NCBI GenBank assembly: GCA_030068145.1
Contig: JAPJBO010000284.1
Span: forward strand, 183,974 to 247,973
Origin: Diplonema papillatum
Lineage: Eukaryota > Euglenozoa > Diplonemea > Diplonemida > Diplonemidae
Direction of reading: 5' to 3'
Length of the DNA: 64,000 nucleotides
Part shown: positions 25,036-58,284 of the stretch, piece after piece
How positions within the stretch are numbered: the first letter of the stretch is position 1
How the letters are laid out: each line of letters starts with the position of its first letter
The notes under the pieces: generated by a model
The model's input: the letters and a program-made list of their open reading frames with translations, nothing else
What the model was told of the DNA's origin: nothing
The model's database searches: none
Made by a program: the position numbers and the translations under genes

Positions 25036-25285
<250 letters not shown>

Positions 25286-30548: not shown

Positions 30549-30927
30549 GTGTCAACACCACAGGCGAAACCACAAGCGACTCAAAGTGAACACTTAAGCA
30601 GTGGCTTTCAAAATTTCGAACAAAGATATCCAGCTGAACCATGGCATGAGTGCTTGAGACAAGATGCGCCCACTTGATGATGCAATGAGCCTCCAGGAAC
30701 TCACGCCAGGAACGTCACGTGAAAAAAGCCTCCACAATTTTGCACCTTCTACGTCCTGTTTCCTGAACGCGCAATTTGCTACGTACACACGGTATTAAGT
30801 CGGGGCACAATCCGAGCACAAAATCGCAGCAGTGGGCCACATCAACGAAAGAAATGGCGGCGCTTGGAAATGCTTCTAGTCGTCCGGAATATAGAGAGAA
30901 CAGAATACCCGCAGAACTCTGCAACAC

Positions 30928-31460
<533 letters not shown>

Positions 31461-37906: not shown

Positions 37907-38045
37907 CGTCGCTACCGACACCCTTCCTTTCCACCTTCTTGGGGGCGGGGGATACAAGCACGTGCTTATGTGGGGCTGATGCCCATAACGGTAGACAAAT
38001 CTAAGTTTTTGCCCATAACGGTATAGTCGCAAGTTTTTGCCCATA

Positions 38046-39945
38046 TATGGGTCGATTTAAAAAAAGGGCCAGGACCACCCGTGCTACTAGAGCACAGGCG
38101 AATCCGTCACGGGGAGAAGGCCCCTACAACCGTGTCTGAGCAATCAGTTAAAAAACTCACGGCACTCGCCCTGATTGTGACTGCGACTCGCTAGGCAGCA
38201 CTGACTTGTCTTCATTTTACGGTGGCAATCTAAACTCCGCAGAGCACAGTGGACATGGGGTTGCCGTGTGCAGCACCAATGGTTGAAGTACCAAAAGGAA
38301 AAGAGTGCGAGGAAGTAATCCTGCGTGCTGAGGGCAGCAAGTCGCGTTACGCGAAGTACCCTACTGGAATGGGGGGATTGCAAGAACGTGCTTGGAATGG
38401 GTATGTGCTCAACACCGCACTGGTCCCGTCTGCGCCGTGTTTCGGTCCTTTAAGCCACGGACACATAAGGCGGGGTACCCACCCACCCCTCGTTGCCGTC
38501 CGGCTGACAACGATGCCGAGTTTAGGGGCCTTAGCATCAGCACTGGGGGGGGTTCACTTCTTGTCGGTTTTTTTGCTTTCCGTTGATGTTCACTCAGCTC
38601 AGACACAAGGAATCATCCCAGAAAGTTGTTTCAGGAGGTTTTCTGACCATAAACTTGGAGAAGCCATCAACAAAACACGAAAATAGCCCCCAAAATGGTG
38701 AATTCACCCTATTTTCAATCATTTTGGGGCAACAGTGGTGTGGTTGCTGTGCAATGCCTTTTTGTCACCGCTCCACCCCAGAACGCCTTGCAACAACACA
38801 ACCCCCCAGAACACTCTGGAAGAGCACCAGAACACCTTGGAATACCCCCAAACCACCTTGGAAGACTCCAAACTACCTTGAAAGACCCCCAGAACACCTT
38901 GGCAGAACACCTTCAAGGCCCCCAGAGGACATTGGAAAACCCCTGGCGCACGTTGGCAGACCCTCAAAACACCTTGAAAGACTTCTTGAACACCTTGGAA
39001 CCCCCCAGAACACCTTGGAAACTCCCCAGAACACGTTGGAAAGCTCCCAGAATACCCTGCAAGACCACCAGAGCACCTTGGTCGACCCCACCCAACCTTG
39101 GAAGACCTTTAGCACACCTTATAAGAACCCAGAACACCTTGGCAGAACTCCTTGCTAAGCCCCCAGACAGCTTGGAAACCCCGAGAACACCTTGAAACCC
39201 CCCAGAATACCTTAGAACCCCCTCAGAACACCTTGAAAAACCTCCGGAACACCCTCAGAACACCTTGGAAGACCCCCTAAGGACACTTGGAAACCCCCAG
39301 GACACTTTGGAAGACCCCCCGGACACTTTGGAAGACCCCCCGGACACTTTGGAAGACCCCCCGGACACTTTGGAAGACCCCCGGCACACCTTGGACGACC
39401 TTCAGAACACCTCGGAAGGTGTCCTGGGGGTCTTCCAATGTGCTGTGGGGGGGTTTTCAAGGTGCACCAGGGGTTCCAAGGTGTTCAAGAGGTCTTTCAA
39501 GGTGTTTTGAGGGTCTGCCAACGTGCACCAGGGGTTTCTGGGGGGCTTGAAGGTCTTCTGCCAAGGTGTTCTGGGGGTCTTTCAAAGTAGTTTGGGGTCT
39601 TCCAAGGTGGTTTGGGGGTCTTCCAAGGCGTTCTGGGGTTCTTCCAGAGTGTTTTGGGGGGTTTCCAAGGCGTTCGGGGGGTTCTTCCAGTGGAGCAGCT
39701 ACAAAAAGGCATTGCAGCAACCACACCACAGTTGCCCCAAAATGATTGAAAATAGGGTGAATTCACCATTTTTGGGGCTATTTTCATGTTTTGTTGATGG
39801 CTTCTCCAAGTTTATGGTCAGAAAACCTCCTGAAACAACTTTCTGGGATGATTCCTTGTGTCTGAGCTGAGTGAACATCAACGGAAAGCAAAAAAACCGA
39901 CAAGAATTGAAACCCCCCCCCCCCCCTTTTTTAAATCGACCCATA
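38046..39945. mobile_element. Element L: fold-back element with TA target duplication
   Basis: Ends are TATGGGTCGATTTAAAAAA and its inverse. The host site CCCATAACGG, known from neighbouring units, is split with TA duplicated, as for Tc1/mariner-type insertion. Inner arms of about 220 bp (38,545-38,780 and 39,690-39,925) are nearly identical inverted repeats. Between them CCAGAACACCTTGGAAGACC-type units fill about 600 bp in one orientation and then about 250 bp in the other, so the whole can fold on itself. A family A copy (38,069-38,544) has entered the G run of the left arm. Confidence 0.75.
38069..38544. repeat. Family A repeat, best-bounded copy
   Basis: Inferred limits come from the interruption in the left arm of element L: the right arm goes straight from AAAAAA through a G run to the inner repeat, while the left arm has these 476 bp in between. 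Colinear with 7918-8240. No coding capacity recognised. Confidence 0.6.
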
Positions 39946-40016
39946 TAACGGTATGAAGTTCTAAGTTTTTGCCCATAACGGTATGGAAATCCAAGTTTTT
40001 GCCCTAACGGTTCCAC

Positions 40017-40330
40017 ACTTCCTGTGTGGATTCTGGGTTCTTACTTTGGGGTCGAAGTTTTGGGTCCAAGTTCTGGCCAAACTTGTGCCACGACCCAAAC
40101 TTGGACCCACAGTCTTGGGTCCCAGTATTGGGCAAGTTTTGAGTCCAAGTATTGGGTCAGGTTTTGACTCCAAGTTTTGGGTCAAGTTTTGGGTTCAAGT
40201 TTTGGGTCCAAGTTTTGGGTCCAAGTTTTGGGTCCAAGTTTTGGGTCCAAGTGTTTTGGGTCCAAGTTTTGGGTCCAAGTTTTGGGTCCAAGTTTTGGTT
40301 CAAGGTTTGGGTCCAAATTTTGGACCAACT
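40017..40330. repeat. GGGTCCAAG minisatellite
   Basis: About 20 units of TTTTGGGTCCAAG, irregular at the left and regular at 40,185-40,310. The same core is seen at 18,060-18,145 and 48,715-48,850. Confidence 0.9.
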
Positions 40331-40459
40331 TTTCCGCACGTTGGCGCGAAAAGCTCCTTCTTACTTTTCATGCTCGCCTTTAGCTGTTCAATGTGGCAAA
40401 TTCTGTTGTGTTTTCCGCAGTTCAATTCCGCCAACAGGAAATTCCATCCACCCGCTGAT

Positions 40460-42710
40460 CAATTCCCGGGGCTAATTCCCATTCTCGAACACAATTTAAC
40501 TTTTTGCCCATTCTCGAGGGCTAATGCCCATTCTCGAACACAGTTTAACTTTTTGCCCATTCTCGAACACTCGCTAACTTTTTGCCCATTCTCGAACACT
40601 TTTTAACTTTTTGCCCATTCTCGAACAGTCGCCTAACTTTTTGCCCATTCTCGAACATTGAAAATTGCCCAGGGTGGGATTCGAACTCACCACCCGTACA
40701 TCCGAAAAATCCAGCCATTTTTGGGTTCGCCATTTCCGATTCCGATTTCCGTCGGATCCGTTCCTCGAACAAGGTGCCAGCATTTTGGTTGGCTGCTGCG
40801 TCCCGGCTCGGTATCCTGGTTGCGCACTGGGTCATTGACACCGCAGACGACGGGTAAACGGTTTACTAAAGGCATTGTGCACACAGATTCGTGCATAATT
40901 CAGGTATGCGCGAGTGACCAATCCGTTCTACTTGTAAGCGCTTCCTAATTATGTGCCCAAATCTCTTCAGAGCCACTGTTTTACCACGAGTAGTAACCAG
41001 CGACGGGCGCGACGTCACCCCGAATGACCCCAGAGGAGCGGGAGAGACTCAGAGCGGTAGCCGCAGCCAATCAAGATTTGAGTGATACTACTCTTACAGT
41101 AGAAGCTGCAAAGAAATGCGTAGTTTTGTTTTATTCTTTTACTTGTTTGTTGTCGACAACATATTGTGGTTGAGGTGTCATTCAGATGAAGATCTAAAGC
41201 CGCCCACGTCAAATTTTGTTAAGCAGCGGCTGCCAAAACTTGCCGTGACACCTATTTGATGCAAGGTAAAGGAGAAAGTTGGAAGTAATTGGGAAGTTGA
41301 TATTTTGTTGGGACCCTCGTAGCTCGCTGGGTCAGGCGCGCCAGGTAAGTGCTGGGCTAGTTCCTGTCTGGGCTCGGACTGTGAAGTCCTCTTGGGTTTC
41401 CGTCGCAAGTTCTCTCGTGTATGCTTACACCGAACCAGTTTGCGAATGGGTTTCCGGACCTTGTTGTCGCTATACCACAGAAGCGACACTTCGGCACGGT
41501 GGCTTGTGGGTCAGGAAGTTGTGTTTCTGGGATGTTCGCGGGAGGGCTTGCCTGCGAATCTTGCGTTTGTGACGGCGTCTGTCGTGGCAGCTCTGGTGTA
41601 ACAGGTCGAGCTGGTGGCTGTTCCCTTGAGTCCAGTCGAACGGAAGGCTGTTCTGGTGACTCTGGTTGAGCGGCCAGATGTTCTGGTTGTTCTTCTGATG
41701 GTTGGGGGACAACACGCGGGCACGCCTGTTCCTCTGTACTTGTCGCTGAAGCAAAAGAGTTGCGGGGAGGGTCTGCGTTTGGGTTGTGGAATCTTGCGAA
41801 CAGGCTTTCGGAGTACGGTCCCTGTATTGGGATGTAATGCACTTGAGCGATGTAACCTAGCATTACGGGGGTCCCTGACTCACCTACTGTCTGCGTGTGA
41901 AACCTGTTTCTCTCGTCAATGGAAAACAGGTGTATTTTCACGTTTTTGAGCTTTGTGTAGGCCACGAGTGAAAGGTAGTCGCCCCAGGTGTAGTTCTCGC
42001 GGAGTTTTGCAATGTACTGGGAGAGGTCAAGGTCGGGTAGGAAGTGCCAGAGCAGCCAGTCGTCTGAAAATATTCAGGAGCTGGCGGATGTTGACTGGAT
42101 CTTGTCCTCCCTGCCGCAGGTTGGCAGGCTGAGAGAGAGACTGGAATTGCCGGCGAGCCGCCAGGGCGCATGGCAGGAGCCATTTCTCCCGCCCATGTGC
42201 CAAGTGTAACAGCTGCCACTTCAACTCTGAAAAAAAATTGACCCAAAAAATCTGACCAAAAAAATTTGACCGAAAATTATTGTCCCAAATTTTTGGCCCA
42301 AAATGTGAATCACGTTGCAAACTGCTTTTCCTGTAAACAGAAAGCCTGGTGTAGGTCGCTGCGCAATTTGTAAGCAAACTCAGTGAAGTCTGTGCCGGGT
42401 TTTTAAACGGGGTAGCTCGCACGCCACCGTCACGTGTAGAAGAGCTTGAAGCAACCAAGAAACCGAGTGTAGATGCCGCCGAAGAAGCTGCGGCCTGAAG
42501 TTAGCAAGGGCCGTCTTCGAATCACTGTTCTCGCGGTGAAACTTCAGGCAAATGTCTCGGGGAAGTGACATTTTCACCACAAAAACTGGAATGTCCGAGA
42601 ATGAGCAAAAAGTTAAATAGTGTTCGAGATGGGCAAAAAGTTAAAAAGTGTTCGAGAATGGGCACAAACATAAGGAAGTGTACTATAATGGGAATTGTTC
42701 CCAATTCCCG
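40460..42710. mobile_element. Element F: MULE-like element with 9-bp target duplication and OTU remnant
   Basis: CAATTCCCG flanks 40,469-42,701 at both sides. Ends are related inverted repeats: GGGCTAATTCCCATTCTCG on the left and GGAACAATTCCCATTATAG on the right. Subterminal arrays of CCCATTCTCGAACAC with TTAACTTTTTG lie at 40,478-40,660 and, inverted, at 42,590-42,665. The interior holds an OTU-protease-like pseudogene on the minus strand. It is nested in element G. A stretch at about 40,795-40,915 is shared, inverted, with element H (62,955-63,080). Confidence 0.8.
41357..42190 (-). pseudogene. OTU-like cysteine protease with C-terminal zinc finger, frameshifted
   Basis: Two minus frames give one protein. 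The first (42,190 to about 42,060) ends GGQDPVNIRQLLNIF; the second continues DDWLLWHFLPDLDLSQYI, then ENYTWGDYLSLVAYTKLKNV and, near the end of the fold, GYIAQVHYIPI. This is the OTU pattern: an N-terminal helix, W-G-D before the helical segment and the catalytic His in VHY. A frameshift separates the halves near 42,060, and the Cys box expected upstream (D-G-N-C) is not recognisable (AARRQFQSLS), so it is probably inactive. After a Pro/Gln/Ser-rich linker comes a C2HC finger, CRFCG...HERTC. OTU enzymes cleave ubiquitin or similar chains; related proteases are known in some mobile elements. Confidence 0.6.
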
Positions 42711-43252
42711 ATCTCTCTCGATTTTGCGGGATAACACTGGAATTATACAACATGCACGAAAATGAGGTTTCAAACTTTTTGGAGACTCAGCTCGAAGTCG
42801 CTGCTCGGTAGTGCGCGCATGGCCGGGTGATGTTGGGTTACTGGTCGCCCGTCCACATCATCATCAGATCAAGCCGCCGCACGCGCCAACGGGCAGGCAC
42901 GCGCCAACGGGCCAGTGAACCCAGGTCAACCCTCGTATGTTTCGGTGTGGCTGAATCGAACTGGTCAGGCTGGGGTCGAAGGAATTTCTGAATGATTCAA
43001 AATGGGTCAGGCCGTTTTTTGGCGCGGCTCATTTTCTGGTCTCAAAACCGGTTTGGGCAAAAACTTCACAATCGTGTACCGTTATGGGCAAAAACCTAAG
43101 CAGCTATACCGTTATGGGCAAAAACGTGGGCGAGTATACCGTTATGGGCAAAAACGTGAGTATACCGTTATGGGCAAAAACTTGGGCGAGTATACCGTTA
43201 TGGGCAAAAACTTAGATTTGTCTGCCGTTATGGGCATCAGCCCGCTTATGTG

Positions 43253-43886
43253 ACCACTGCGTGGTATGACATGATGTGAATCTTTATCTGCAGCGTGTTT
43301 CGGTCCTTCATGCCGTGGGCACATCGAACGGTATCTGCTCCACACACTTGGTACAGTCTACTTACGTTTTGCTTTTGATTCCGATAAAAAGCCAGACAAC
43401 AATAGACAATGGCAACTTCATTGCTAGCTGCTCGACTTGATGCCCGAGATTCAACCGGAGGCCTTTGAACTCTGCCTTTTGAGTTGTGGGCGCCGCCCGG
43501 TGACCCGAGTTTCGGCAGCTGTTTCAGCAAGAAACGAGAGGGCGAAACGACTTTTGCTTTCGTTCAAAGACCGCGGGGGAGGGCATGTGGCGCGTCTACC
43601 GGCTTTCGTTGGTTCTCACTTTTACATGGGTAACGGGAGGGGGGCATGGAACTAAAAATATTGGCTTAGGCGATACGGCTGCGACTCAGGGCGCGGCGCT
43701 TTACTACTCTCTTCTGTTTTTTAGTGGTGTTCTTTATTGTGTTTTTGTACAGAAACAAGAGAAGAAATACGTAGTTTTGTTGAAAATCACGACTCTTGCC
43801 ACGAGCCTGGGGAGATACAACGGCAGGATGGGTCCGTTTCGCTGAAAGCTTGCTCAGCCGTTCCTCGATTTCCAGCGTTATTTCCG
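43253..43886. other. Region without supported gene
   Basis: Host-like sequence resuming after element G, with a weak family A tail at 43,295-43,325. Open frames have no domains. Confidence 0.4.
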
Positions 43887-43996
43887 TAAAAAGACAGGCG
43901 CTTCGTTTTTGTGCGTCGGTTGATCATTTTTTCACTAGTTTTTACCTCATTCTCAGATGAGGAATTCTACCGGAACGCTGCTCACGTCTTTTTAGC
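43887..43996. mobile_element. Family D MITE-like copy
   Basis: AAAAAGACAGGCGCTTCGTT to CTCACGTCTTTTT; same ends as 17,754-17,881 and about 110 bp long. A long direct repeat begins at once on its right. Confidence 0.6.
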
Positions 43997-44380
43997 ACAA
44001 TGTATTACTCATTCCACGAAAACGTGTCACAGATTTTGCTTCGTGCGATCCGCCCTGTTTAGACCAAAGTTTGAGCAAAATTCGGATATTTTTTTGGGAT
44101 GGAAAGAGCTATCCACGGCGTGTATCGGCACCTTTTTGTAACTCGATATAGCCAAAAATCTGACTCAAGATGACTTTAGACGTTTTTCGGCCGATTTTCG
44201 GGCCCCCAAAAAAACACTCTTCGAAGGAATCGGACCAAGTACCCCCAGAACCGCAAGTGGGTGTGCTACCCGTCAGACCACGGGCGAAAAAAAAACTCTG
44301 TTTTTAGTAAGCAACTACGGAAGACATGCAGGGGGCGAGAACTGCATTTACTCGTACGGGCAAGTCGTTCTTTTGTTCCT
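43997..44380. repeat. Long dispersed repeat, copy 1
   Basis: Matches 45,997-46,390 in the same orientation, from CTCATTCCACGAAAACGTGT through GGGATGGAAAGAGCT and CCCCCAAAAAAACACTCTTC to GACATGCAGGGGGCGAGAAC. A diverged inverted relative is at 47,395-47,760. The CATTCCACGAAAACGTGTCA end also occurs alone at 52,668-52,697 and 60,030-60,057. Confidence 0.8.
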
Positions 44381-44889
44381 TTTGTCAAACTAGGAAAGAA
44401 GAAGGACGGAATCTTCCTGTGCATGGAGCAAAACTCCAACCGTGGCTCAAGCCACCATCGCCAGATAGTCGTTGTTAGTTTAGCTTACCCTTAGGCTGCT
44501 AAACTGTCTGTCGTTTAAGTTTATTAGTCAAACCAGTTTCGATCGTTTAGAGTGGCGGCGACAATTATAAATTCAATCTGTGTCTCGTAGAAGGCACCAC
44601 CAGCGAAAAACTGATGAAACGCAGACTGGGTGGACATGTTATTCCAAAGCACGCACGCCAATCCCTGCCCCGGCAGAACTTGACAGTTGTTGAATAGAAT
44701 TGTCTTGTAATACAATTCTTCGAGACTGGAGGTCCTATGAACATGCAATGTGAATAGCCTCTATTCGAGCCAACCCCACTTTTCTCTACACTAAAAAAGT
44801 GTATTGTTTTTGAACTAGATAATAGCGCGGAGCTGGCTTTTTCTCCCCCTGGGCGGCCCCCCCCCGTGCTGGGCCCCGGGTAAGAGGCC

Positions 44890-45375
44890 AAATTTTACAC
44901 CCGAACTTAGCTTCACCCGGACTTTGTTTCGCCGAACTTAGCTTCACCCGAGCTTTGCTTCGCCCGAACTTTGCTTCACCTAACTTTGCTCACCCGAACT
45001 TAGCTTCGCCCGAACTTTGTTTCGCCCGAACTTTGTTTCGCCCGAACTTAGCTTCACCAGAACTTTGCTTCACCCGAACTTAGCTTCGCCCGAACTTTGC
45101 TTCACCAGAACTTAGCTTCGCCCGAACTTTGCTTCACCCGAACTTAGCTTCGCCGAACTTTGTTTCGCCCGATCTTAGCTTCACCAGAACGTCCGAACTT
45201 TGCTTCACCCAGAACTTAGCTTCGCCCGGACTTTGTTTCGCCCGAACTTAGCTTCGCCCGAACTTTGCTTCGCCCGAACTTTGTTTCGCCCGAACTTAGC
45301 TTCACCCGAACTTTGCTTCACCAGAACTTAGCATTGCCCGAACTTAGCTTCGCCCGAACGTTGCTGTTCCCCGAA
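44890..45375. repeat. 16-17 bp minisatellite (CCCGAACTTAGCTTCG)
   Basis: About 28 units of CCCGAACTTAGCTTCG and CCCGAACTTTGCTTCA variants that alternate A/T and G/A at two positions, over 480 bp. It runs straight into a block shared with element 2. Confidence 0.9.
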
Positions 45376-45800
45376 CTTTAACTGCTGCCTCCAGTCTCGC
45401 CACTGGCCGGCCTTAGCCGAGCGCACGTACTTTCTACAGAAGTCGCCTGTCACGCGGCCAAGACGGAGACAGTCCGGCCAAGCTGCACGAGCCGATTCGT
45501 CCAAGGGCGCCAAAGCGCCACCTACAAACGCTCCGCCGACGAATGCGCCACCTTCCAAAATCACTCTACTTCTCCACTGATTTTGCGCAATCTTCTACGG
45601 CCGGGCCGCAGCAGTAGATCTCGAGATAGTTGGCGACGCCACAGCACTGGGCGTCGCCCTTCGCCACCGCCGACCACTTACGACAAACCACGTCCCTGCC
45701 GGGTCATCACGCAACTTAGTACGCTTGCGCAGTGACTCGTAATAGCCTACAAAGGTTTCACAACGAGTCACTGACAACTTGACAAACGTGACCACCGGTC
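45376..45800. repeat. Block shared with element 2 in opposite orientation
   Basis: Homologous to 52,855-53,255 reversed, including CACAGCACTGGGCGTCGCCC, GCCGATTCGTCCAAGGGCGC and AGTGACTCGTAATAGCC. No conserved reading frame recognised. At 45,855-45,995 it is followed by ACAATTGTATTCCAAG units. Confidence 0.7.
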
Positions 45801-45996
45801 TCCAGTCTACCGGAGTCCAGACCTGTTGTGGAGGGTCCACGATTAGAAACCGTGTGCACAATTGTATTCCAAGGCAACTGCACCAAAACCAAGTGTGTTC
45901 CAACACAATTCTATTCAGCTGGACGGACTCTGAAACCGGCCAAAAAAAAAAGACAATTGTATTCAAAGGACACAATTGTATTCCAAGACAATTGTA

Positions 45997-46390
45997 TTTC
46001 ACTCATTCCACGAAAACGTGTCATAGATTTTGCGTCGTGCGATCCGCCGTGTTTAGGCCAAATTTTGAGCAAAATTCGGAAATTTTTTTTGGGATGGAAA
46101 GAGCTTTCCTCGGCGTGTATCGGCACCTTTTTGGAACTCGATATAGCCAAAAATCTGACCCCCAGATGGCACTTCAGACGTTTTTCGGCCGATTTCCGGG
46201 CCCCCAAAAAAACACTCTTCGGAGGACCAACCCGTAGTACCCCCAGAACCACTGGGTGTGCTACCCGCTTAACATGTCGACGCCCGTAGGCAACGGCTTC
46301 ACTGGGCCGGGTTTTTTCGCCCGTGGTTTTTTTAGACATGCAGGGGGCGAGAACTGCATTTACGCGTACGGGCAAGTCGTTCTCTTAGAG
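45997..46390. repeat. Long dispersed repeat, copy 2
   Basis: Second copy of the repeat at 43,997-44,380, roughly 85-90% alike by eye. Both copies are followed by a GTAGAAGGC.CCACCA stretch and GATG(G)AACGCAGACTGGG, related to the 3' flank of the LINE fragment at 46,680. Confidence 0.75.
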
Positions 46391-46679
46391 TCAAGTAGAA
46401 GGCCCACCAACGAAAAGTTGATGGAACGCAGACTGGGAGGACATGTTGAGGGACTAGAACTTAGGACAGCCAGGGTGTTGTCCAGAACTGAGTCTACAAC
46501 GTAGGGGGAAAAGGAGCATTCAGACAGTACCAAATTGTGACCAATCCATTAACAGATTCCGTTTCGTGTACAAGCGGCGAACTAACAGTAATCCGATCAC
46601 TGAGTAACTTTGTAGGAGAACTAACAGAAATATCCAATCACTGAGTAAGTTTGTAGAAGGATCCACCAATGTAAAGCTG

Positions 46680-47302
46680 ATGGAAGCGCAGTATCAGGAG
46701 AGCGGTCAGGGGATACCTCCCCAGTATGTCCCGCAAGGTCCATTTCTGCCTCGGCCAACGCTCCTTCGTCAGCCGGACTCCGAGTCGCTCTCCCGCGGCC
46801 GCCACTGGCTGGGGAGAGGAGTCCATGGTCCGTCCCCGGCGATGTCAGGACCAGTTGAAGGGGAAGATGGCGGAGTAGGAGGGGGCGAGACCGGTGTCGC
46901 CGCGGTGAAGGCGGACAGGCGCGGAGAGGGCTCTTCGTCGCGTTCGCGACTCTCCATGGATGGAGACCGGGTCCCCTCTGCATCTTTACGCTGTATCGCG
47001 TATTGCGGGATGACGTTGATCCGCTGCAGGTAGCGGAGGGCAACGTCAGGATGCTTGAATAGGAGCTCCCACAAGCGGATCTCAATTGCAGCGGACCTGT
47101 CGAATCTCACCGCATCCCACATCGCCACGCGTGCAGGCCCCGTTTCCGCATGCCTACATGAGATGAATATGTGCGGGAGGAAGCTAGGGACTCGGTAGCC
47201 ACAGAGCGGGCAGGGTCGGAAGTACAGAGCCCTCTCTCCGGCCGGGAGGTTCATGTACCCTGAAAAGTACCGGGTGGCAAAAAGACCGTGGTGCATGGCC
47301 AA
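46680..47302 (-). pseudogene. 5'-truncated Ingi-like LINE, C-terminal fragment
   Basis: Only the last 178 codons and 3' flank remain (46,769-47,302 coding). The fragment matches the C-terminus of the long LINE ORF at 54.7-58.3 kb: RPCPLCG then HIFISC, a C2HC finger, followed by LWELLFKHPDVALRYLQR. The tail is Pro/Ser/Glu-rich. The 5' truncation is typical of incomplete target-primed reverse transcription. Confidence 0.75.
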
Positions 47303-47394
47303 AATTCGCTTTTAGCGCCTGCTCAGTTGGAATTCTTATCGGAAAGTGCGAGATCGTCATTTACTCGTTTCCAGTGTCCCAGGACGGTATTTCT

Positions 47395-47770
47395 GCTCTC
47401 TCAGAGCTTATTTCGCCCGGTTTGCGAAGAACTCAAAATGGTCCAAAATTCTAACTCTGTAGTGAACAAAAAGAATTTCCGCCGTTTTTTTAGCCCACAC
47501 CCACACAGGGGTTTGAGGGTCGGTGGTTCGATTCTGCCGGAAATCGTTTTTTTGGGTTTTTGAAACAGCCCCAAAACCGACCTTTTGTCCATCTGCACGC
47601 CAGATTTTGGTCGCCACGCGAGCTGATTGCTTGCCCATAATCGCCAGGGATAGCTCTTTCCATCCCAAAAAAAATTTCCCAGGTTCCGGAATTTTGACCC
47701 AAAACGGGCTGCTTTTCAGACGGAAAATCAGTGACACTTTTTCGTGGAATGGGTGCTACCAAAGCACTTT
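47395..47770. repeat. Diverged inverted relative of the 43,997/45,997 repeat
   Basis: Shares GATAGCTCTTTCCATCCCAA, TTTTTTTGGG and an end GTGACACTTTTTCGTGGAAT in reverse orientation. More diverged than the other two copies. Confidence 0.55.
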
Positions 47771-47984
47771 CTACACCCACCCTCCAGGGAAAGCAACCCG
47801 CCCTCTTCCAACACACCTCGACCCCTGCGACACAAAAGGAAAACAAGCGCGTGGCGTGCCTTCCGGCACAAAGCGGGCCCAGTAACGCCCCTACCTGCGA
47901 GGACACTTGCGGGTGCCTCATGCAAAAAAAAAAAAAAATCTGGCCTGGAAAATTTGGGGCAGCATGTCAGGAGACGGGCTGGTG

Positions 47985-48110
47985 CCCATTACAGCACGGT
48001 TTTGTTAGATTTGCCCATTACAGCACGGTCTTCCTTAGATTTGCCCATTCGGTGTTTTCGAGTGCCCATTACAGCACGGTTTTCTTAGATTTGCCCATTC
48101 GGTGCCTCAA
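47985..48110. repeat. GCCCATTACAGCACGG repeat cluster
   Basis: Four GCCCATT units, three with ACAGCACGGT and two with TCGGTG, joined by TTAGATTT. At 48,880-48,965 related inverted units GGACTATAATGGCAAAATCT appear. Together they resemble subterminal arrays of another inverted-repeat element, but no matching ends or target duplication were found. Confidence 0.55.
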
Positions 48111-48229
48111 AAAGTGTCACTTGTGGGATTGGCTTTTTTTGAACCCGAAAAAGTGTGTACTCGAACTCACGACCTTCAGACCTTCCTCTGCATTGTGACT
48201 GTGACATCCACACTTGGACGATGGACAAT

Positions 48230-48300
48230 GGGCTGTCACCGGGCATAGCTGTCAGCCACAAAGTAGCCACAACCTTGTGGCTACCTTTGTGGCCAGGTGG
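48230..48300. repeat. Solo end of an element H-type repeat
   Basis: GGGCATAGCTGTCAGCCACA followed by AAGTAGCCACAA and GTGGCTACC, the same as the ends of the element at 61,626-63,293. No partner end nearby. Confidence 0.7.
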
Positions 48301-49424
48301 ACACCTTCAGTCTGTCAGAAGTTCAGATGAGGTTGACGGGTTTTAGGGCCAGCATTTGGGCCAGCTGCTACGCCGTTTCTGGCTGAAATTCTGCTGAACC
48401 ACGTCGCCGGCCAAGACTGAGAAGAAAATGGCAGTTGTTGTCATGGAACATTCATCCGAAATTCCGGGCTAAATCATCCCAATGGCACCTTCGTAGTCGC
48501 CGCACGCTTCGCGTGTTCCGCGCACTTGACGAGCACGCATTCCGAAGCTCTCCACTCACCGCGGCGGTGACCGCCTTGCACGCACTTGCGGCACTGCCGC
48601 AGCGACGATGTAGTGACACACTGCAGGCGCAGCGACGCATTCCGTTCGCATCCCGCATCCACCTGAATGATGAGTGTCCGAATCAGCTACGCGTTTCCAT
48701 TAGTCAGTGTGACTGTCAAGTTTTGGGTCTGGATCCAAGCTTAGGGTTTAGGTTCAAGTTTTGGGTTCTCAATTTGGTTCCCGGTTTTTGCACCATTTGG
48801 GTCCAAGTTTTGGGTCCAAGTGTTGTAGGTTTTGGGTTCAAGTTGCGGCCTGGTTCTGAAGAGGCTATCGGACAGAAATTACGGATGGACTATAATGGAA
48901 AGATCTAAGAATCGTGGACTATAATGGCAAAATCTAAGAATCGTGGACTATAATGGCAAAGTTCCCGTTGGACAGTTCAAGGTGAAAGATGACGTCCGGT
49001 TTCGAGCCCCAAGGGGGAAAAGGAGCGTATGAGCGGATGGCCGTGGGTCGATAATTGTCCGGTTTGAGCGAAAGGTTGGCCTCCGCCGTCCTGGCCTCCC
49101 TCATCCATCTTGTTACGTTGTGTGTGGGCCCGCCTGGCGATCGAATCATCTTTTGACGAAGTCTTGCTGCGGCGTGAGTTGCCATGACTCTCCAGGGGAG
49201 AAGACCAGCTTCTGCCAGGAGTGCGGAATGCTTCGTTGAAGAGGGACAGCCACTACTGGCAGGCGGGAGAAAAGTTATATCCGCAATATTATCCAGTCCA
49301 AAAACAATACGGTTTCATAATTGTTGCAAGAAAAGCCGGGTTGGCTCGAATAGAGGCTATTCACATTGCATGTTCATAGGACCTCCAGTCTCGAAAAATT
49401 CTGGCCCGTAGTTGCTCACTCAAA
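48301..49424. other. Region without supported gene
   Basis: Weak GGGTTCAAG-like repeats at 48,715-48,850, GGACTATAATGG units at 48,880-48,965, and a block at 49,285-49,400 shared, inverted, with 44,735-44,830 (ATAGAGGCTATTCACATTGC). No gene recognised. Confidence 0.45.
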
Positions 49425-49694
49425 AAAAAAGGCCTTTTTTTTTTGGAGCGCGGGACACTGTACTTGCCATGTTGGTACAGCGGGGCTGCCGGTATCCAGT
49501 TGCTTCCGGAGCGGTAGTCCAAAGAAATGCTTCTTCAGCACACTGTGAACGCCTGTCTCACAGCGACACGGGACTGGCCTGCGCGTGACTGCTAACAGGT
49601 CCGACCCGGTAAAAAAACCCGCGATGCAGTGACTCTACCCCCTGCATCAGGGTGGATCCGCTTCGTCCGGTCGCGCCCCACCAGATGCAATGAC

Positions 49695-52071
49695 GATCCT
49701 TGCAGTGTGAGGTTTAGCTACAGTAGCCTTTTGTAGCAGCTATAGCTGCTACAGTTTTTAGCTACTGTAGCTCCTGTAGCTTTTTGTAGCCTTTTGTAGC
49801 CTTTTTTTTGTGCTATCAAAATACGATTCAAACCCATGTGAAACGTCACCCAAACCCGAATTCCGCCTGATTTTCCACTTTTTTTGACGATTGTGGCGTC
49901 TGTCAGTCACTCAGTGTCAGCAGCGTTCACGTTCTTGCTCTGTAGCAGTGTACGGTCTCCTGCACTGGCACAGGCTGCAGTAGGGGAAGGCTCTTGCAAC
50001 TGCAGGCTACAATAGCGAGTCCAACAGTGTGGAGGCTGGCCCCGGGGCGTCGGGGCTGAGCTGGCCCAAGAATGGGTTGTTCTTCGGGTGCGCACTTTGA
50101 AAACAACCAAGGAAATCGGCCGCCCCTGTCAGTCAGTCGTGCGGTCTGGGGGCTGGCCGGTGCCGGGGCTCTTTTTTCTCCGACGCTGAGAATGGGCTAC
50201 TACAACAGGGGGGCAGTTTCTACTGTTTCAACGTTTCAACAGTAGATCCATTCCCAGTGCCGCCGCGGGGCTCTCACGGAATCGTGTGAGCGGCCTGCAG
50301 ATGCAGGTACTGGGTGGTCGTTCGGTAAGGTCACACTCGTCTGCCGAAACCCTTGTAGGCTTCAAATTGAAGTTCAATGGCCGGCAGCTCGAAGAAAGTC
50401 TCCGTTCCCAGCTGTGTCATCACCTGTTCAAGACTGCTGGATCTGGCGGAAACGCCGACTGAACCCGGAGGCCTTGCCGATCCTTACCGCACCCCCAGAC
50501 TCTGCAGACGTCGCCGCCACCGCGCTACGAACGCGTGGCTGTCACTCCGCTGTGCTTGTTCCGCGGCACTGCTGCCGGCAGCCACACTCTCATCATCCCA
50601 GTTTCCACAAACCGAGAGAGCTCATCCAAATTATGATCAAGGAAGCAATACGAGACGTGTCACGAAACTTTAGCCTGCAACGCAGCACACGTTGAGCGTT
50701 GGTCGGGTCGTAGGGTGCACGCACGCCCGACCCTACTGTAGACTTCTTGGGAAATCGTGATGACTCCGCTAACGGCCTTCGACAAAGCTTCGTGGTGGTT
50801 GGTGATTTGCAACTTGGGTCGCAAGTTACAGTTGGCAGCCCGGGGCCGGGTCTGGGACGTACCGATTCGTAGCCGGATGATGCATCTCTGCTGGGAGTGC
50901 GGCTCAGCAGTGAACTTGAAATGCAGGCGCTGCGCAGCGCAATAGTAGTGGCTTGGATGCGTGACTCGTCCTCATCGGACTGCAGCCTGTGATACAGGCT
51001 TTCAACAGCCACCAGTATCAGCAGGCCGTGTAGCCAACACGGCATGCGTCACAGTCGACAAGAGGCTCAGTCACTCACCCGGCTACCGCGATGCTCGCCG
51101 AGAAGCGTCAGACTCTGAATCAAGACCGAACTGATGCTGATGCAGAATGTCGGGCAAAAAGCTACTCTTGGTGAAAGACTCCAGGTGCAGCCACGGTCCG
51201 GCTGTCTTACTGTCCTGCCCGTACTGTAGAGGGCCAGTGCACAAAGCTAAGGATACGCACGTGTTTTTGTATTGGTTTTGGTCCAAGTTTGGAAGTCCCT
51301 GCCGGGGCTCAACCTCGCGCGGACCACGTTTTGTCGCAGATCGCTCACTACTTTAATGCTTTAGTGGCCGGACTGCGTTTTTGATTCGTGCTGAGCGGCG
51401 TGCTCTTGCCGGGAGTCCCGCCTGCCCGTCGAAAGCGCGCGCCAGGTCGAAGACGAGCAGCATGTGAATCGGCCTTTTTTCCGGTTGATTGCCTCTCCAT
51501 ACCCGGAAGCCTACGGACTGAGGAGTCAGTCCATCGATGGAGGAACGTGGGGCGGTCTTTGATAATGGTCTCCACTATCTTCCAAATGGCAGGTGAGTGC
51601 GTTCTTCTTGTGGCGAATCCCCAGGAGGCCCTGAGGGGCTTTTGGGGGCCCCCGTCCGACGGGGAGTGACTGGTCTAAAACGGTGGCTTCGAGTGTTCTT
51701 CGCTCTGCGGTTGGGGTCCTGATTGGCTTCGCTTCATGGAACCGTCGTGACTCTGGCGCCCCAGGCTTCCCTGCTGCATCACCCTCGCCGCCTGCGTGGT
51801 TGCAGCCTCACCGACCCTCACTGAGGCTCGGTAGGCTGCAGTGCAGGGCCCGGCAGTGAGGCCTCAGTGCACAGGGCAAAGCAGGTGCCAGGAAACACGC
51901 CAAAATATGCCCAGAAAACTTCGAAGCTGAAGAAATTGGGGCAAAAAGTATCCTGAATGGGCTGGGTACCCCCCCAAAAAAAAAGAGCTACAAAAGGCTA
52001 CAAAAGGCTACAAAAAGCTACGCTGTAGCTAGCTATAGCTTTTTGTAGCTAAACCTCACACTGATCCTTGC
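49695..52071. mobile_element. Element 1: 2.36-kb inverted-repeat element, 9-bp target duplication
   Basis: GATCCTTGC flanks 49,704-52,062. Ends are perfect inverted repeats of AGTGTGAGGTTTAGCTACA. Subterminal sequence at both ends is made of GTAGC and TTTTTGTAGC units (49,715-49,805 and 51,985-52,050), many of them palindromic. The 2.1-kb interior has small open frames, one with CWECG...CRRC (50,757-50,945), but no recognised transposase. The empty site can be checked against the intact LINE copy at 58,970-58,990. Confidence 0.85.
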
Positions 52072-53851
52072 CACGGGCCAATTCCCATTCCAGCACCTTT
52101 TTGAACTTTTTGCCCATTCCAGCACTCTCGCAAACTTTTTGCCCATTCCAGCACCGTTTCCAAACTTTTTGCCCATTCCAGCACTATCGCAAACTTTTTG
52201 CCCATTCCAGCACCTTTTCCAAACTTTTTGCCCATTCCAGCATCTTTTCCAAGCTTTTTGCCCATTCCAGTACTATCTCCAAACTTTTTGCCCATTCCAG
52301 CACTATTTCCAAACTTTTTGCCCATTCCAGCACTATTTTCGAACTTTTTGCCCATTCCAGCACTTTATCCAAACTTTTTGCCCACTCCAGGCTGGAGCAG
52401 ATCCAGCACTCGCAGTGACTCGTTTTGCCCATCATTGTGTGCCTATCACAGTACGTACATTCTGAAGTCGTTGCCGTCATGAATCCATGCCTTACTGGGT
52501 CACAGTGAGCGCACCGGACAGTCAGTCCGTTGCGGTGCGACTGATACACGGGTTTTCCTGCGGTAGCAGCATCTAGTTTTACCGCAGCACAAGCAGCCTC
52601 CGTACAAGAAAACTCTGATCCCTCTTCTACTGTCATGGGATCGACTCTTTCCCCCAGAAATTGTTCCAAATCTGTGACACTTTTCGTGGAATGAGTGATA
52701 AATAGCTAAAAAGAGCTACATGTAGCTGGCCAAATAGCTAGCTAAGTCTCGCACTGTCTTTTCGGCATTTTTGCCCCCCTACCCCAGGGTTTTCACCAAA
52801 AAAAACTTTTCGAAATCTCAGCCATTCTGAGCCATCGAGTGGCTGTCCCCCACACTGCGTGACACGTTTGTCAAGCTGTCAGTGACTGTTGTGAAACCTT
52901 TGTAGGCTATTACGAGCCACTGCGCAAGCGTACTAAGTAGCGTGATGAACCCGGTTTTGTCATCAGTGGTCGGCGGGTCGCGAAGGGCGACGCCCAGTGC
53001 TGTGGCGTCGCCATCTACTGCTGCGGCCTGCCGGTCGTAGAAGATTCCGCAAAATCAGTGGAGAAGTAGACTCCTACTGTAGAGTGATTTTGGAACGACC
53101 CGTAGTGTAGGTGGCGCACGTCGGCGGAGCGTTTGTAGGTGGCGCTTTGGTGGGCGCCCTTGGACGAAATCGGCTCGTGCAGCTTGGCTACGTGTTGTCC
53201 GGACTGTCTCCGTCTTGGCCGCATGACAAGGCGACTTCTGTAGAAGAAAGAAGAGAAGAAAAAGGCCGCTCCTGGTCCAGGAACGTGACGGTCAACCACA
53301 GCTTGCAAAGCTTGAGTCGGAGGCAGCACAGTGCCACAACCCCGTCCGCTCTGCCCTGCGGCTGACCGTCTCGACGAGCTTGCGTTCAGCCGCGAATCAG
53401 CGCGAGCGCCAAGAGGTGCGCCAAGCCTTGATGCTTTAGTCTGGGAAATCGGGAGCCACTTGACCCGTAGGCCCGTGGCTGCAGTACCGCCGAACACGTG
53501 AAGCTTGGCTCCCGTGTATTTAGCCCCCCCCTGCAGATGGTAAAACCCGAAGGTATGGAAATTGCAGTGTTGATTTTGCCATAATATTGGTAAAGGGTGG
53601 TAATACTAATAGTGCTTGAATGGGCAAAAAGTTTGGAAATAGTGCTGGAATGGGCAAAAAGTTTGGAAATAGTGCTGGAATGGGCAAAAAGTTTGGGCAG
53701 AGTGCTGGAATGGGCAAAAAGTTTGGGCAGAGTGCTGGAATGGGCAAAAAGTTTGCGATAGTGCTGGAATGGGCAAAAAGTTTGGAAATAGTGCTGGAAT
53801 GGGCAAAAAGTTTGAAAATGGTGCTGGAATGGTAATTGGCCCCCTTGCCAC
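52066..53851. mobile_element. Element 2: 1.77-kb MULE-like element, 9-bp target duplication
   Basis: CCTTGCCAC flanks 52,075-53,842. Ends match over 22 bases with one mismatch (GGGCCAATTCCCATTCC on the left). Subterminal arrays of CCCATTCCAGCAC with AAACTTTTTG lie at 52,080-52,390 (11 units) and, inverted, at 53,610-53,835 (8 units). The interior holds a block shared with 45,376-45,800, a copy of the SINE-like sequence from 4161-4443, and a solo end resembling element 1 (52,690-52,757). No transposase. Confidence 0.85.
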
Positions 53852-54657: not shown

Positions 54658-54672
54658 CTATTGAACTAGGGC

Positions 54673-57600
54673 TTGCATCTGGGAGTTCATCCCCAAACGC
54701 CTGGAGAAGTTTGGCGGGCAGACTGGGAAGAGATGATGCTTCGGTTGGATGAGGAGAGCGCGACCCTTCTCGCCAAAAGACCGGCCACCAACACCCAGTT
54801 CGCCAAACGCATTGCCTCCTGCTTCCGCCGTGCCATCCATGATTTTGTCCCGAAGTACACCCAGGGCCGTGCGTACAAGGCGTGGTGGACCCCTGAGCTC
54901 ACCACCCTCGAACGTGAAAAAGCCGCCGCTTTCGCGGAGCTGCAGGCGGAGCCCGACTCCTCGGACAAGATCTGTGCACACCTCGAGAAGATATGCGAGT
55001 TCAAGGAGGCCGCCACGCAGGCCAAAACCTGCTACTGGGACAGGATAGCGGGCCGCATTAACAGGTGCACTGGCATTGCCCTCCTTTTCCGCCAGGTCCG
55101 CATGCTGGACGGTAGGCGCAACCACCTTTCTATCCCTCCGCTGCGGAACGGCGAAGGTTTCTGCGTCGAAGCCGAAGTCAAAGCCGAAATCCTCGGACGG
55201 CATCTCGAGTCCGTCTGTGGGGGCGCAAACACTGATCCCCCCCGCCGATGGGCTCCGAAAAATCGCCCGTCCGATGACGACGTTGGCTGTGGGCGTATAA
55301 CCGAGGACGAGCTTGATCGTGCTCTCAAGGATCTCGACCCGAAGACATCCCTGGACCCCGACGGCATCTGCACCGAGTTCCTGTCCAGGCTGGATGGAGG
55401 CGCCAAGCAGCTGATCCTCGAGCTCCTGAACATCTCTTGGGGTGAAGGGTTTGTCCCGGACACCTGGCGTGATGCCCACGTCATACCTGTCGCGAAGCCA
55501 GGCAGAGACCACTCCCTCCCTGAGGGTTACCGCCCTATCTCTCTGACGAGCGTTACCTCCAAGCTGATGGAAGTGATCGTCAAGAACCGGCTGGTTTTCC
55601 TGACGGAGAACGAGGAAGTCACCCAGGTCCTACCTTTCTGCACTCGGCAGGGCGGCTTCCGTAAGCAGCGAGGTACTGAGGAGCAGCTTTACTCCGTCAT
55701 GACCACGATCGACTGCGCGGTACCTACCCGGCGACGCGTCTGCCTCCTCTCGTTCGACCTGGCCAACGCCTTTGACACCGTCGACCACGCCCTCCTACTC
55801 GACGCTATGCAGAGTAAGGGAGTCCCCCCTAAGTTTCTCGTGTGGCTTGAGTCCTTCTTGAGGAACAGAAGGGCGGCTTTCAAGGTCGATGGGGCCACCG
55901 GAAGCAAGTTCCACCTGAAGCACGGCGTGCCCCAGGGTACCGTCCTCGGGCCGATACTCTTCTTGTATCACATCGACGGCCTCGGCACCTCACTGGAAGC
56001 TCTCAACAAGCGAATTGTTGAAGAGACCCAAGGGGGTTCCTGGATCACGTTCTCACTCTTCGCCGACGATGACGGCGTCGTAGTCTCTTCCCCAAGCCGC
56101 GCCCCACTTGAGAAGTACACCCAAATGGTTGTGGACGTGGTCGAGGACTGGACGATCGAAGCCAAAATGCACCTGTCAAAGCTGAAGACGGAAGCAGTCT
56201 TGTTTCGGGATCCTGGTGCCCCCGAACCTGTACCTCTGAGGACGAGATTCAACGCCACAGCCGTCGACGTCACGGTGCCCGCCGATTACGCCACGACGCT
56301 GAAGTCGAGATCGGCCTGGAAGTTCCTGGAGCCGGAGAAGGACTCGCCCTGGCACCAGCACCACGGCAAAATCATCATCTCGCTTGAAGTCGTGGAAGGC
56401 GGCCGCATGGTTACCATACGCGTCGCCGATGGGCTGCGCTGGGTAGGCAAGACCAAACTTCTTGGCCTGACCATCGACTCGGAACTCACGTTCCACCACC
56501 ACATGCAGCGTGTAGTCGACAACTTCTCTCTGAAGATGAACTTCCTGCGGCACCTTTCCGGGAAATCGTTCGGTTGCAACACGTGCACGCTGCGCACTCT
56601 GTACCTGACGTACGTCCTACCGACATACACGTACGCCCTGTCGGTCTACGGCCCGTACCTCCTTCGTTCCACATCTCCCCTGGTGGCAACACTTGAGCGG
56701 CTGCACAACCGTGCCCTTATTCTCCTCCTCGGATGCAGGAAGAACACCTCCGAATTCTCAGCGCAACAAGAATCCGGGATCTTGCCGCTCCGTGCGATAG
56801 CAAGGCTCCGTATCGCCGCTTTGCGAGAGAGAATGCGGCGCCGCGGCACGCTCTGGCGAAAGGAGCTCGCCATGCACTCGACGATGAGGCGAGACTACGT
56901 TGACTTGTGCGAAAAGGCCGATACGGACGGGTGCAAGCGCGAGGAATTTGTTTTCAACCCGTTTGCCCCCTGGACGCCCAGCCCTAGGGTGTCTATAGTC
57001 GCCACCCTGCCAGGGAAGAAGGGCGACTCGCCTGCGGCCAAGAAGCGTATCGTCGTAGCCCGGCTGAATGAGCTTGACCCGACGGACTGCTCAGCCTGGG
57101 TGGACGGCTCGGTGCTCAAAGGTGAACCGCCGCCCCAGCCGCCGCCCTCGATAGCCGACAATTGGGACGAACGTCATCTCCCGTGGCTGAAGCGCTACAA
57201 CGATAAGACGACATGGGGCGGGGCCGGACTGTACTTCGTGTTCGAGCCGTCTATCACCGACAGCCTGCGCAACGTCGCTGGTATGAAGCTCACCGCCGCC
57301 GGGGATCGGCGCACGACAACCCGGTCGTTCCCGGTCGGGAAATACGCGCACAGCTACCGCGCGGAGCAGGTAGCCCTGTACTCGGCCCTGGTGTTCTACA
57401 GTCAGCATCTCGCGCCGACGACTCGCCCGCTCCACATCCTCATCCTGAGCGACTCCCAATCGTTTCTCAAAACGTTGAGTGCCGGCCCGCATGCCCAAGT
57501 CGAGCCTCTCGCCATAGAGTGCTGGAAGATCCTGTCGGATCTGGAAGCAAGGGGTTATCTAGCCACCTTGCAGTTCGTCTACGGGCACTGCGGGCTTGAA

Positions 57601-58284
57601 GGCAACGACGTGGCGGACAACCTCGCAAAAACTGCGGCCCTCGCACACCGTCAGGCTGCGGAAGACTCTTCCGCGATTCACCCTGAGCCCTACCCGCTGA
57701 CCGTCGCTGATGCAATCTGCCGCTATCGACGGTACCTACGACTGGATAGCAGCGAATTAGGTGCCAAGGGTGCGTTCGAGCGTGCAGACGAGCACGGGAA
57801 CATCTCGCCGTTCGCCCGTATTGTTCACGGGCGGCCGATACCTCGACGCCGTCACCTCACGGCGCGGGCGGAGCGAGAGATTCGCCAGCTGAGGACCGGA
57901 CACCACCGCCTGATCATGACGCTTTATTCTGCGTCGTACGTATCCCTCGGTTCGGATGAGCGGCGGTGGCACTTCCTTCCGTGCCCGATCTGCGGGGCTC
58001 GCTCGCCCAGCCCCCTGCTGCACTTATTCGTGCACTGCCGAGCCTTCGTTACAGCTCCCCTCAGGACCACGCTGCGGCTTGAGGTAACAAGGCGGATAAA
58101 GAAGGACCCAGGCGGACCCATCGACTCCCTCTGGTACTTCTTATTCGTCCACCCCGAGCTCGCCCTTTTTTACTTACAGAGAGCTGGCGCCCTTCCACCC
58201 TTCCAAGTCCTTGTGGCGTCCAGCCCTGACGATACCCCGGACACGACCGAAGAACACGAGTACGGGCTTGTGCCCATACTGTAG
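54673..58284 (+). CDS. Ingi/I-like LINE polyprotein: RT, RNase H, zinc finger (5' truncated)
   Basis: An uninterrupted 1203-codon frame. The first ~10 codons come from a 27-bp adapter, not from the LINE, whose homology begins near 54,705. The reverse transcriptase core spans about residues 265-520: catalytic Asp362 in FDLANAFD, GVPQGTVLGP at 418-427 and FADD at 463-466. An RNase HI domain follows at about 800-990 with all four acidic residues (Asp811, Glu898, Asp927, Asp979). A C2HC finger (CPIC...HLFVHC) lies at 1104-1122. The apurinic endonuclease expected upstream in this clade is absent, so the copy is truncated, yet both enzymatic centres look intact, implying recent insertion. Related 5'-truncated copies: 46,680, 60,555 and 63,705. 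Confidence 0.9.
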   Translation: MHLGVHPQTPGEVWRADWEEMMLRLDEESATLLAKRPATNTQFAKRIASCFRRAIHDFVPKYTQGRAYKAWWTPELTTLEREKAAAFAELQAEPDSSDKICAHLEKICEFKEAATQAKTCYWDRIAGRINRCTGIALLFRQVRMLDGRRNHLSIPPLRNGEGFCVEAEVKAEILGRHLESVCGGANTDPPRRWAPKNRPSDDDVGCGRITEDELDRALKDLDPKTSLDPDGICTEFLSRLDGGAKQLILELLNISWGEGFVPDTWRDAHVIPVAKPGRDHSLPEGYRPISLTSVTSKLMEVIVKNRLVFLTENEEVTQVLPFCTRQGGFRKQRGTEEQLYSVMTTIDCAVPTRRRVCLLSFDLANAFDTVDHALLLDAMQSKGVPPKFLVWLESFLRNRRAAFKVDGATGSKFHLKHGVPQGTVLGPILFLYHIDGLGTSLEALNKRIVEETQGGSWITFSLFADDDGVVVSSPSRAPLEKYTQMVVDVVEDWTIEAKMHLSKLKTEAVLFRDPGAPEPVPLRTRFNATAVDVTVPADYATTLKSRSAWKFLEPEKDSPWHQHHGKIIISLEVVEGGRMVTIRVADGLRWVGKTKLLGLTIDSELTFHHHMQRVVDNFSLKMNFLRHLSGKSFGCNTCTLRTLYLTYVLPTYTYALSVYGPYLLRSTSPLVATLERLHNRALILLLGCRKNTSEFSAQQESGILPLRAIARLRIAALRERMRRRGTLWRKELAMHSTMRRDYVDLCEKADTDGCKREEFVFNPFAPWTPSPRVSIVATLPGKKGDSPAAKKRIVVARLNELDPTDCSAWVDGSVLKGEPPPQPPPSIADNWDERHLPWLKRYNDKTTWGGAGLYFVFEPSITDSLRNVAGMKLTAAGDRRTTTRSFPVGKYAHSYRAEQVALYSALVFYSQHLAPTTRPLHILILSDSQSFLKTLSAGPHAQVEPLAIECWKILSDLEARGYLATLQFVYGHCGLEGNDVADNLAKTAALAHRQAAEDSSAIHPEPYPLTVADAICRYRRYLRLDSSELGAKGAFERADEHGNISPFARIVHGRPIPRRRHLTARAEREIRQLRTGHHRLIMTLYSASYVSLGSDERRWHFLPCPICGARSPSPLLHLFVHCRAFVTAPLRTTLRLEVTRRIKKDPGGPIDSLWYFLFVHPELALFYLQRAGALPPFQVLVASSPDDTPDTTEEHEYGLVPIL

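Follow-up and report, generated by a model that had tools for sequence, protein, structure and literature searches.

The stretch of Diplonema papillatum DNA analysed here (the window; 64,000 nucleotides, contig JAPJBO010000284.1, positions 183,974 to 247,973) contains several separate tandem arrays whose units share a core and differ in the suffix that follows it. Are these arrays a modular code of a constant half and interchangeable suffixes, as the first-pass annotation had proposed, or did the suffixes diverge together with the elements that carry them? The common core itself is borne out: TTTTTGCCCAT is present in 30 exact copies in the window versus 0.07 expected from shuffled sequence, and in 5,165 copies genome-wide (271 Mb, 2,910 contigs) versus 167 for a reversed-pattern control. 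In 2,556 of the 5,165 genomic copies the core is followed by TMYMGNAC (control, 0). The other 2,609 lack an exact TMYMGNAC, and some of them are G-type, short-unit or mutated units. An Rfam scan of the window gave no match.

Element G (37973–43243) has the terminus GGGCTGATGCCCATAACGG at both ends, the suffix AACGGTATA and an exact 9-bp target duplication, GCTTATGTG (37964–37972 and 43244–43252); its right array, of about six units, occupies 43047–43243 on the minus strand. G holds nested elements, one of which is element F (40469–42701), whose left end (end A) is GGGCTAATTCCCATTCTCGAACAC, whose right end (end B) is GGAACAATTCCCATTATAGTACAC and whose exact 9-bp duplication is CAATTCCCG (40460–40468 and 42702–42710). 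Element 2 (52075–53842) ends in GGGCCAATTCCCATTCCAGCACC on the left and GGGCCAATTACCATTCCAGCACC on the right and is flanked by its own exact 9-bp duplication, CCTTGCCAC (52066–52074 and 53843–53851). Two earlier observations thus stand: the arrays of G, F and 2 lie inside both inverted termini in mirror orientation, and the terminal repeat begins with the array unit, the terminus being a unit variant in all three. The fourth array, W (47976–48110, plus strand), does have a terminus, GGGCTGGTGCCCATTACAGCACGG, but is not evidently a complete element, since no partner end was found in the window, where the nine bases outside the terminus recur nowhere else; a second copy of the W end is present at locus L046. 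No partner end was found in the window for a short array of the related unit TTTTGCCATTATAGTCCACG (48886–48966, minus strand) either. Another element, read by eye, is nested in the left array of G (about 38046–39945) and has TATGGGTCGATTT inverted ends and a TA duplication; it contains two opposed, foldback-like arrays of about 20–21 bp at 38803–39689.

The array units are 21–30 bp long and lie just inside the element ends, one half being near-constant and the other family-dependent. Each unit runs from CCCAT through a family suffix and a loose spacer to TTTTTG (or TTTGTG). CCCAT/CCCAC sites close to the ends of 14 elements give 226 steps of up to 60 bp, and 203 of these steps measure 29, 30 or 21 bp; no helical phasing is claimed from the 29/30- and 21-bp lengths. 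The terminus is an outermost unit variant in which the T-rich half is swapped for a GGGCYRATK-like start. The suffixes are TCTCGAAC in F, TATAGAAC in T (a further family), TCCAGCAC in 2, TACAGCAC in W and AACGGTAT in G. Those of F, T, 2 and W fit one consensus, T-M-Y-M-G-N-A-C, and go back to a single 8-base sequence from which they diverged; the G suffix does not fit. The original set of four distinct suffixes is corrected in that those of F, 2 and the 47.98-kb array share one consensus and only AACGGTATA of G stands apart. The "constant" half varies too, with TTTGTG or GATTTG in place of TTTTTG. By hand count, the 100 core+TMYMGNAC sites listed comprise 62 TCTCGAAC, 28 TCCAGCAC, 9 TATAGAAC and one TCTAGAAC.

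How pure the arrays are was assessed on 238 units lying close to the ends of 14 elements, using suffix classes defined after the arrays had been viewed. G elements have 26 G units and 4 others; F elements, 59 F units, 30 short f units, 3 of end-B type and 2 others; family 2 elements, 41 units of type 2 and 6 others. T elements have 47 T units, 8 short t units, 5 of end-B type, 2 others, 2 ties and 3 F-type labels. The two TCTAGAACT units of T elements were labelled 2 because their class tied, and all three F-type labels are from L036, two from a nested F element and one from a variant unit, TATAGGATA, labelled Fb as its nearest match. Inside F and T elements, minority suffixes occupy fixed places in the array. 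Given this positional fixity and the divergence of the F, T, 2 and W suffixes from one sequence, the suffixes are not freely interchangeable. What survives of the modular code is a near-constant half joined to a family-specific half; suffixes are indeed mixed within single F and T elements, but at fixed positions rather than freely, an outcome close to the condition under which the original proposal was to be given up.

Terminus and suffix are linked. The terminal motif GGGCYRATKCCCAT has 521 genomic matches (control, 3). The native pairs, GGGCCAATT terminus with TCCAGCACC and GGGCTGATG terminus with AACGG, have 79 and 53 genomic matches, respectively, and neither of the two swaps searched genome-wide, GGGCCAATTCCCATT then MTMG and GGGCTRATKCCCAT then TCCAG, gave a single match. 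Among 100 GGGCYRATKCCCAT termini listed and compared by hand, all 18 GGGCCAATT termini recur in the TCCAGCACC list and 13 of 14 GGGCTGATG termini recur in the AACGG list; the exception, at L035, has no array within the 300 bp displayed. The expected correspondence between suffix class and inverted-repeat family thus holds in the combinations tested, except that F and T have the terminus GGGCTAATT in common.

Complete elements were sought in the window and 23 loci, some of them overlapping, by scoring flanking duplications of 9 bp only. Exact duplications flank 16 of 672 candidate end pairs, corresponding to 15 distinct complete elements (one was counted twice): 3 G, 3 F, 4 of family 2 and 5 T. 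Near-misses comprise no pair with one mismatch and two pairs with two, and when one flank was shifted by 4 bases as a control, no pair had two or fewer mismatches. The loci were picked for the terminal motif or the core, and the genomic share of arrays lying away from ends is not derivable from them. Short family-2 copies measure 1.5–2.1 kb, and a long end pair on C62, considered as one element, is in fact two short copies of element 2. A T element is inserted in an F unit at L050, and an F element in a T unit at L036; in both cases the flanks read as an intact unit once one copy of the duplication is dropped.

An ORF at L046 starts just inside a T end-A array, itself interrupted by an insertion, reads inward and is truncated. 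It matches the MULE profile (PF10551) with E=0.016 over profile positions 2–52, below the Pfam cut-off. Copies of this ORF at C1683, C2300, C472 and C45 are 92–97% identical to it and overlap PF10551 matches of 48.8 bits (cut-off 27.6) from a genome search with 150 scored matches among 245 candidates. In the genome search with the T ORF itself (129 matches among 420 candidates, 131 scored), further groups were found at 64–65, 52, 50, 48, 45 and 41–44% identity; the 64% group includes C56, C203 and C489, and the 50% group C153, C420, C793, C1323 and C688. MULE transposases have a WRKY-GCM1-type zinc finger in their N-terminus. The L046 ORF shows a C...C...HxC pattern, which profile searches did not confirm; its one NCBIfam match is weak, below the cut-off and to an unrelated family.

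F and 2 carry related remnants. In the window, F retains a MULE-type transposase N-terminus (42473–42568, plus strand) that stops at a stop codon, and the remnant is also kept in seven other copies (L031, L033, L036, L041, two in L043, one of which is also in L042, and L047), in all of which the match starts at the methionine of the T ORF. The F remnant and T share 51% identity over 43 positions, and the window and L033 remnants are 71% identical over 42. Element 2 has a different, related MULE-type N-terminus (52526–52636, minus strand). When an HMM built from T and F only was searched against the fetched DNA in six frames, apart from the mutually overlapping L002–L030, element 2 came next, with 10 hits (E from 4.4e-5 to 2.3e-4) spread over 7 distinct copies, and E then jumped to 0.12 at the following hit. 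The F and 2 remnants are short (34–50 residues), and no intact transposase of its own was present in any F, 2 or G element read. Suffix class and terminus class go together, as does the transposase N-terminus in F, T and 2; the correspondence between suffix class and transposase lineage thus extends to three families with different related MULE N-termini, but not to G, for which no transposase was found. Across 126 of the 150 listed PF10551 matches (24 short-frame ones being set aside) and 200 terminus positions, there is no general co-location of the two. A 933-aa MULE-like frame on C1323 lies 1.5 kb from a family-2 terminus, a distance that is ambiguous as a link because it is within the size range of short family-2 copies.

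On the strength of the truncated MULE-like ORF inside a T array and the related N-terminal remnants in F and 2, we regard T, F and 2 as probable Mutator-like, Foldback-style elements. Their anatomy is in line with this assignment: the exact 9-bp duplications of the 15 distinct elements fall within the 8–11 bp range of MULEs, and long terminal inverted repeats made of tandem units are the hallmark of Foldback elements. CACTA elements, with CACTA termini and a 3-bp duplication, do not match the GGGC... termini and 9-bp duplications found here. Galileo and the P superfamily have an 8-bp target duplication; the duplications here are of 9 bp, and no THAP domain is present among the ORFs scanned, a subset of all ORFs. 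G fits the same element anatomy, its transposase not having been found.

From these sequence patterns we consider that the arrays are probably the subterminal repeats of radiating MULE/Foldback-style families and putative transposase-binding iterons, the variable half tracking the transposase lineage. The elements would represent a radiation of Mutator-like, Foldback-style DNA transposons, the copies here appearing to be mostly internally deleted and non-autonomous. The units may serve as iterons for a DNA-binding region at the transposase N-terminus, with the constant bases as putative contacts common to the whole lineage and the variable bases at unit positions 7, 8, 9 and 11 as putative contacts altered as the lineage split. 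The families would then derive from divergence of one ancestral array and its transposase, not from shuffling of suffixes, and the units would be homogenised within each array. Such families bear on how a transposase and its many sites at both ends change specificity together: collinear arrays of sister families a few positions apart, with matching transposase paralogues, offer a natural and directly testable series.

A rather doubtful alternative is that the suffix differences have no recognition meaning, the arrays being kept uniform through unequal exchange and gene conversion, with the agreement of suffix, terminus and transposase due to common descent, which alone predicts an identical terminus–suffix table. 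Array copy number does vary: among deviating end-B copies, one unit is missing in L034, L036 and L043, the window copy is shortened and the L031 array is expanded to more than 70 units, so exchange between units happens. A comparison of F with T speaks against this alternative. At end B the units are ordered b-F-F-F-f-F-F in L033, L041 and L047, and c-T-T-T-t-T-T in L045, L050 (two elements) and L054, with equal unit lengths of 30, 29, 29, 29, 21 and 29. The special units correspond, b and c both having TATAG and f and t both being short units with TCTCG. In typical arrays 152 of 184 bases are identical, and of the 32 differences those at unit positions 7 and 9 recur in every one of the five ordinary units but are absent from both special units. 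When 32 differences were placed at random, at least one such column arose in 284 of 200,000 trials, versus the two observed, in a test designed after viewing the arrays. Units 1 and 5 keep their shared sequence and the neighbouring core columns are unchanged; homogenisation sparing fixed positions could still yield the pattern. At end A, collinearity between F and T is lost past the third unit.

These fixed odd units also qualify the suffix originally assigned to F, which holds for ordinary units; the right end is mixed, its outermost unit being TATAGTACAC and not TCTCGAACAC. Five of seven F end-B outermost units are exactly TATAGTACAC (window, L031, L033, L041, L047), and the other two are one-base variants, GATAG (L036) and TCTAG (L043). 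The persistence of the end-B outermost and the short 21-bp units suggests that their positions have another role or escaped homogenisation. Returning to the iteron reading, we tentatively raise the possibility that F arose from a T-like ancestor by an A.A to C.C switch in the ordinary units at both ends, together with the transposase; TCTCG may have spread from the short fifth unit, with the end-B outermost and short units left as fixed sentinels. On that view the array would be an address able to evolve, which shields sister families from mobilising one another. The intermediate TCTAG is present in four of eight T end-A termini.

It is unlikely that G represents an independent lineage, of another superfamily with 9-bp duplications, which converged on or captured the CCCAT core. 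Such an origin would account for a suffix, AACGGTATA, outside the consensus, for the lack of a MULE remnant in the window, L044 and L055 copies, and for the long ORFs in two G elements being those of other nested transposons; against it, G shares the terminal formula, the TTTTTG-CCCAT core, the period and the 9-bp duplication. Least probable is that a host protein, as a transcription or silencing factor, binds the constant half, with regulatory arrays and a transposase that recognises the terminus only: the core is common to all families and T arrays adjoin the start of the transposase reading frame, but a unit variant makes up the terminus itself, non-autonomous copies retain arrays at both ends and repeats of the Galileo type are bound by the transposase (PMC3688188).

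The idea that no constant-plus-variable family had been described is not supported: comparable designs, with a conserved terminus and divergent subterminal repeats, are published for soybean CACTA elements (PMC2613891) and Galileo (PMC3688188). Soybean Tgm and Tgmt have a conserved terminal repeat and subterminal repeats that differ between families of one genome, and a parallel change of the binding protein was proposed; unlike the elements here, they have CACTA termini, a 3-bp duplication, a separate DNA-binding protein and a stem-loop arrangement (PMC2613891). Galileo families share about 40 bp of conserved terminus and have family-specific, internally repetitive TIRs, whose repeated sites are bound by the transposase THAP domain with little cross-binding between families; Galileo differs in belonging to the P superfamily, with another DNA-binding domain and much longer units (PMC3688188). 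Comparable MULEs are known as well. Tm1 of root-knot nematodes, a Mutator/Foldback family with asymmetric ends, resembles our elements in its 9-bp duplications, MULE-like transposase, MITE-like deletion copies and composite TIRs of tandem ~14-bp units, with motifs differing between ends and units better conserved at one end. Its units differ in sequence and length and, in the sections available, are of one type with species variants, without sister families having a common core and varied suffixes (PMC3169594). Muta1 and other Aedes aegypti MULEs have a MULE transposase, 8–9 bp duplications, many non-autonomous copies and subterminal tandem repeats (9–15 bp in 10 of 12 long-TIR families), but the units are shorter and the text available describes no constant-plus-variable half-unit across families (PMC5225508). 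MULE subterminal repeats, asymmetric Mutator/Foldback ends and conserved termini with diverged subterminal repeats are already known from these sources; no description of sister MULE families in which one half-unit is constant and the other variable came up in searches of open-licence papers.

Several other mobile elements and repeats were seen. A 1,577-aa ORF in a complete G element (L055, 217–5384, and L056–L059; C678, C48 and C188) was considered as the G transposase and rejected, its body recurring in other arrays, on C48 and C188. Since the body lies in different arrays and the units run in the same direction on both its sides on C48 and C188, it looks like a nested transposon. It has apparent inverted ends GGGTAGGCGG.../...CCGTCTACCC, with TAA or TTA at the junctions read, and in the three places read it sits within tandem arrays, those of a different element type each time. 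It may target such arrays by preference. The ORF has no Pfam or PDB match; by eye it shows D-D-E-like motifs, as in hypothetical animal proteins. The second ORF in the G element on C336, also rejected as the G transposase, belongs to another transposon. Part of this 796-aa ORF, which has no Pfam match, lies at L060 1216–1899, and 103 full-length genomic matches at 100% identity mark it as a very young mobile family. The OTU ORF in F (41360–42046, minus strand) is a passenger and no part of a transposase, being the 3' piece of a retroelement ORF (GIY-YIG, reverse transcriptase-like, OTU). ORFs of the same type, of 1,544–1,547 aa, lie at L051 1998–6629 and L052 1763–6403, both on the minus strand, and comprise GIY-YIG, a reverse transcriptase-like YMDD region identified by eye and a C-terminal OTU protease domain (Pfam detects OTU and GIY-YIG in the L051 ORF); they look like a Penelope-like element with permuted domains. 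On C279 (221583–226728), a stretch matching residues 140–194 of the MULE ORF query is tandemly repeated some 30 times or more in a 1,743-aa open frame. The window also contains a 1,204-aa open frame that matches reverse transcriptase and, weakly, RNase H (54670–58284, plus strand) and dinucleotide runs of GT (124 copies, 25037–25284) and AC (about 120 copies, 30924–31162). ORFs at L039 include a weak CCCH finger (Pfam) and, by eye, a tyrosine-recombinase look, and dynein-like, LRR, PPR and WD40 proteins are among the scanned ORFs. A 16-bp tandem array, CCCGAACTTTGCTTCG, is present in about 30 copies at 44900–45379 of the window and, judged by translation, a similar one lies in the L044 G element. 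A 13-bp repeat, TTTGGGTCCAAGT, and its relatives occur inside several elements, at 40111–40323 and 48796–48825 of the window and in L034 and L036.
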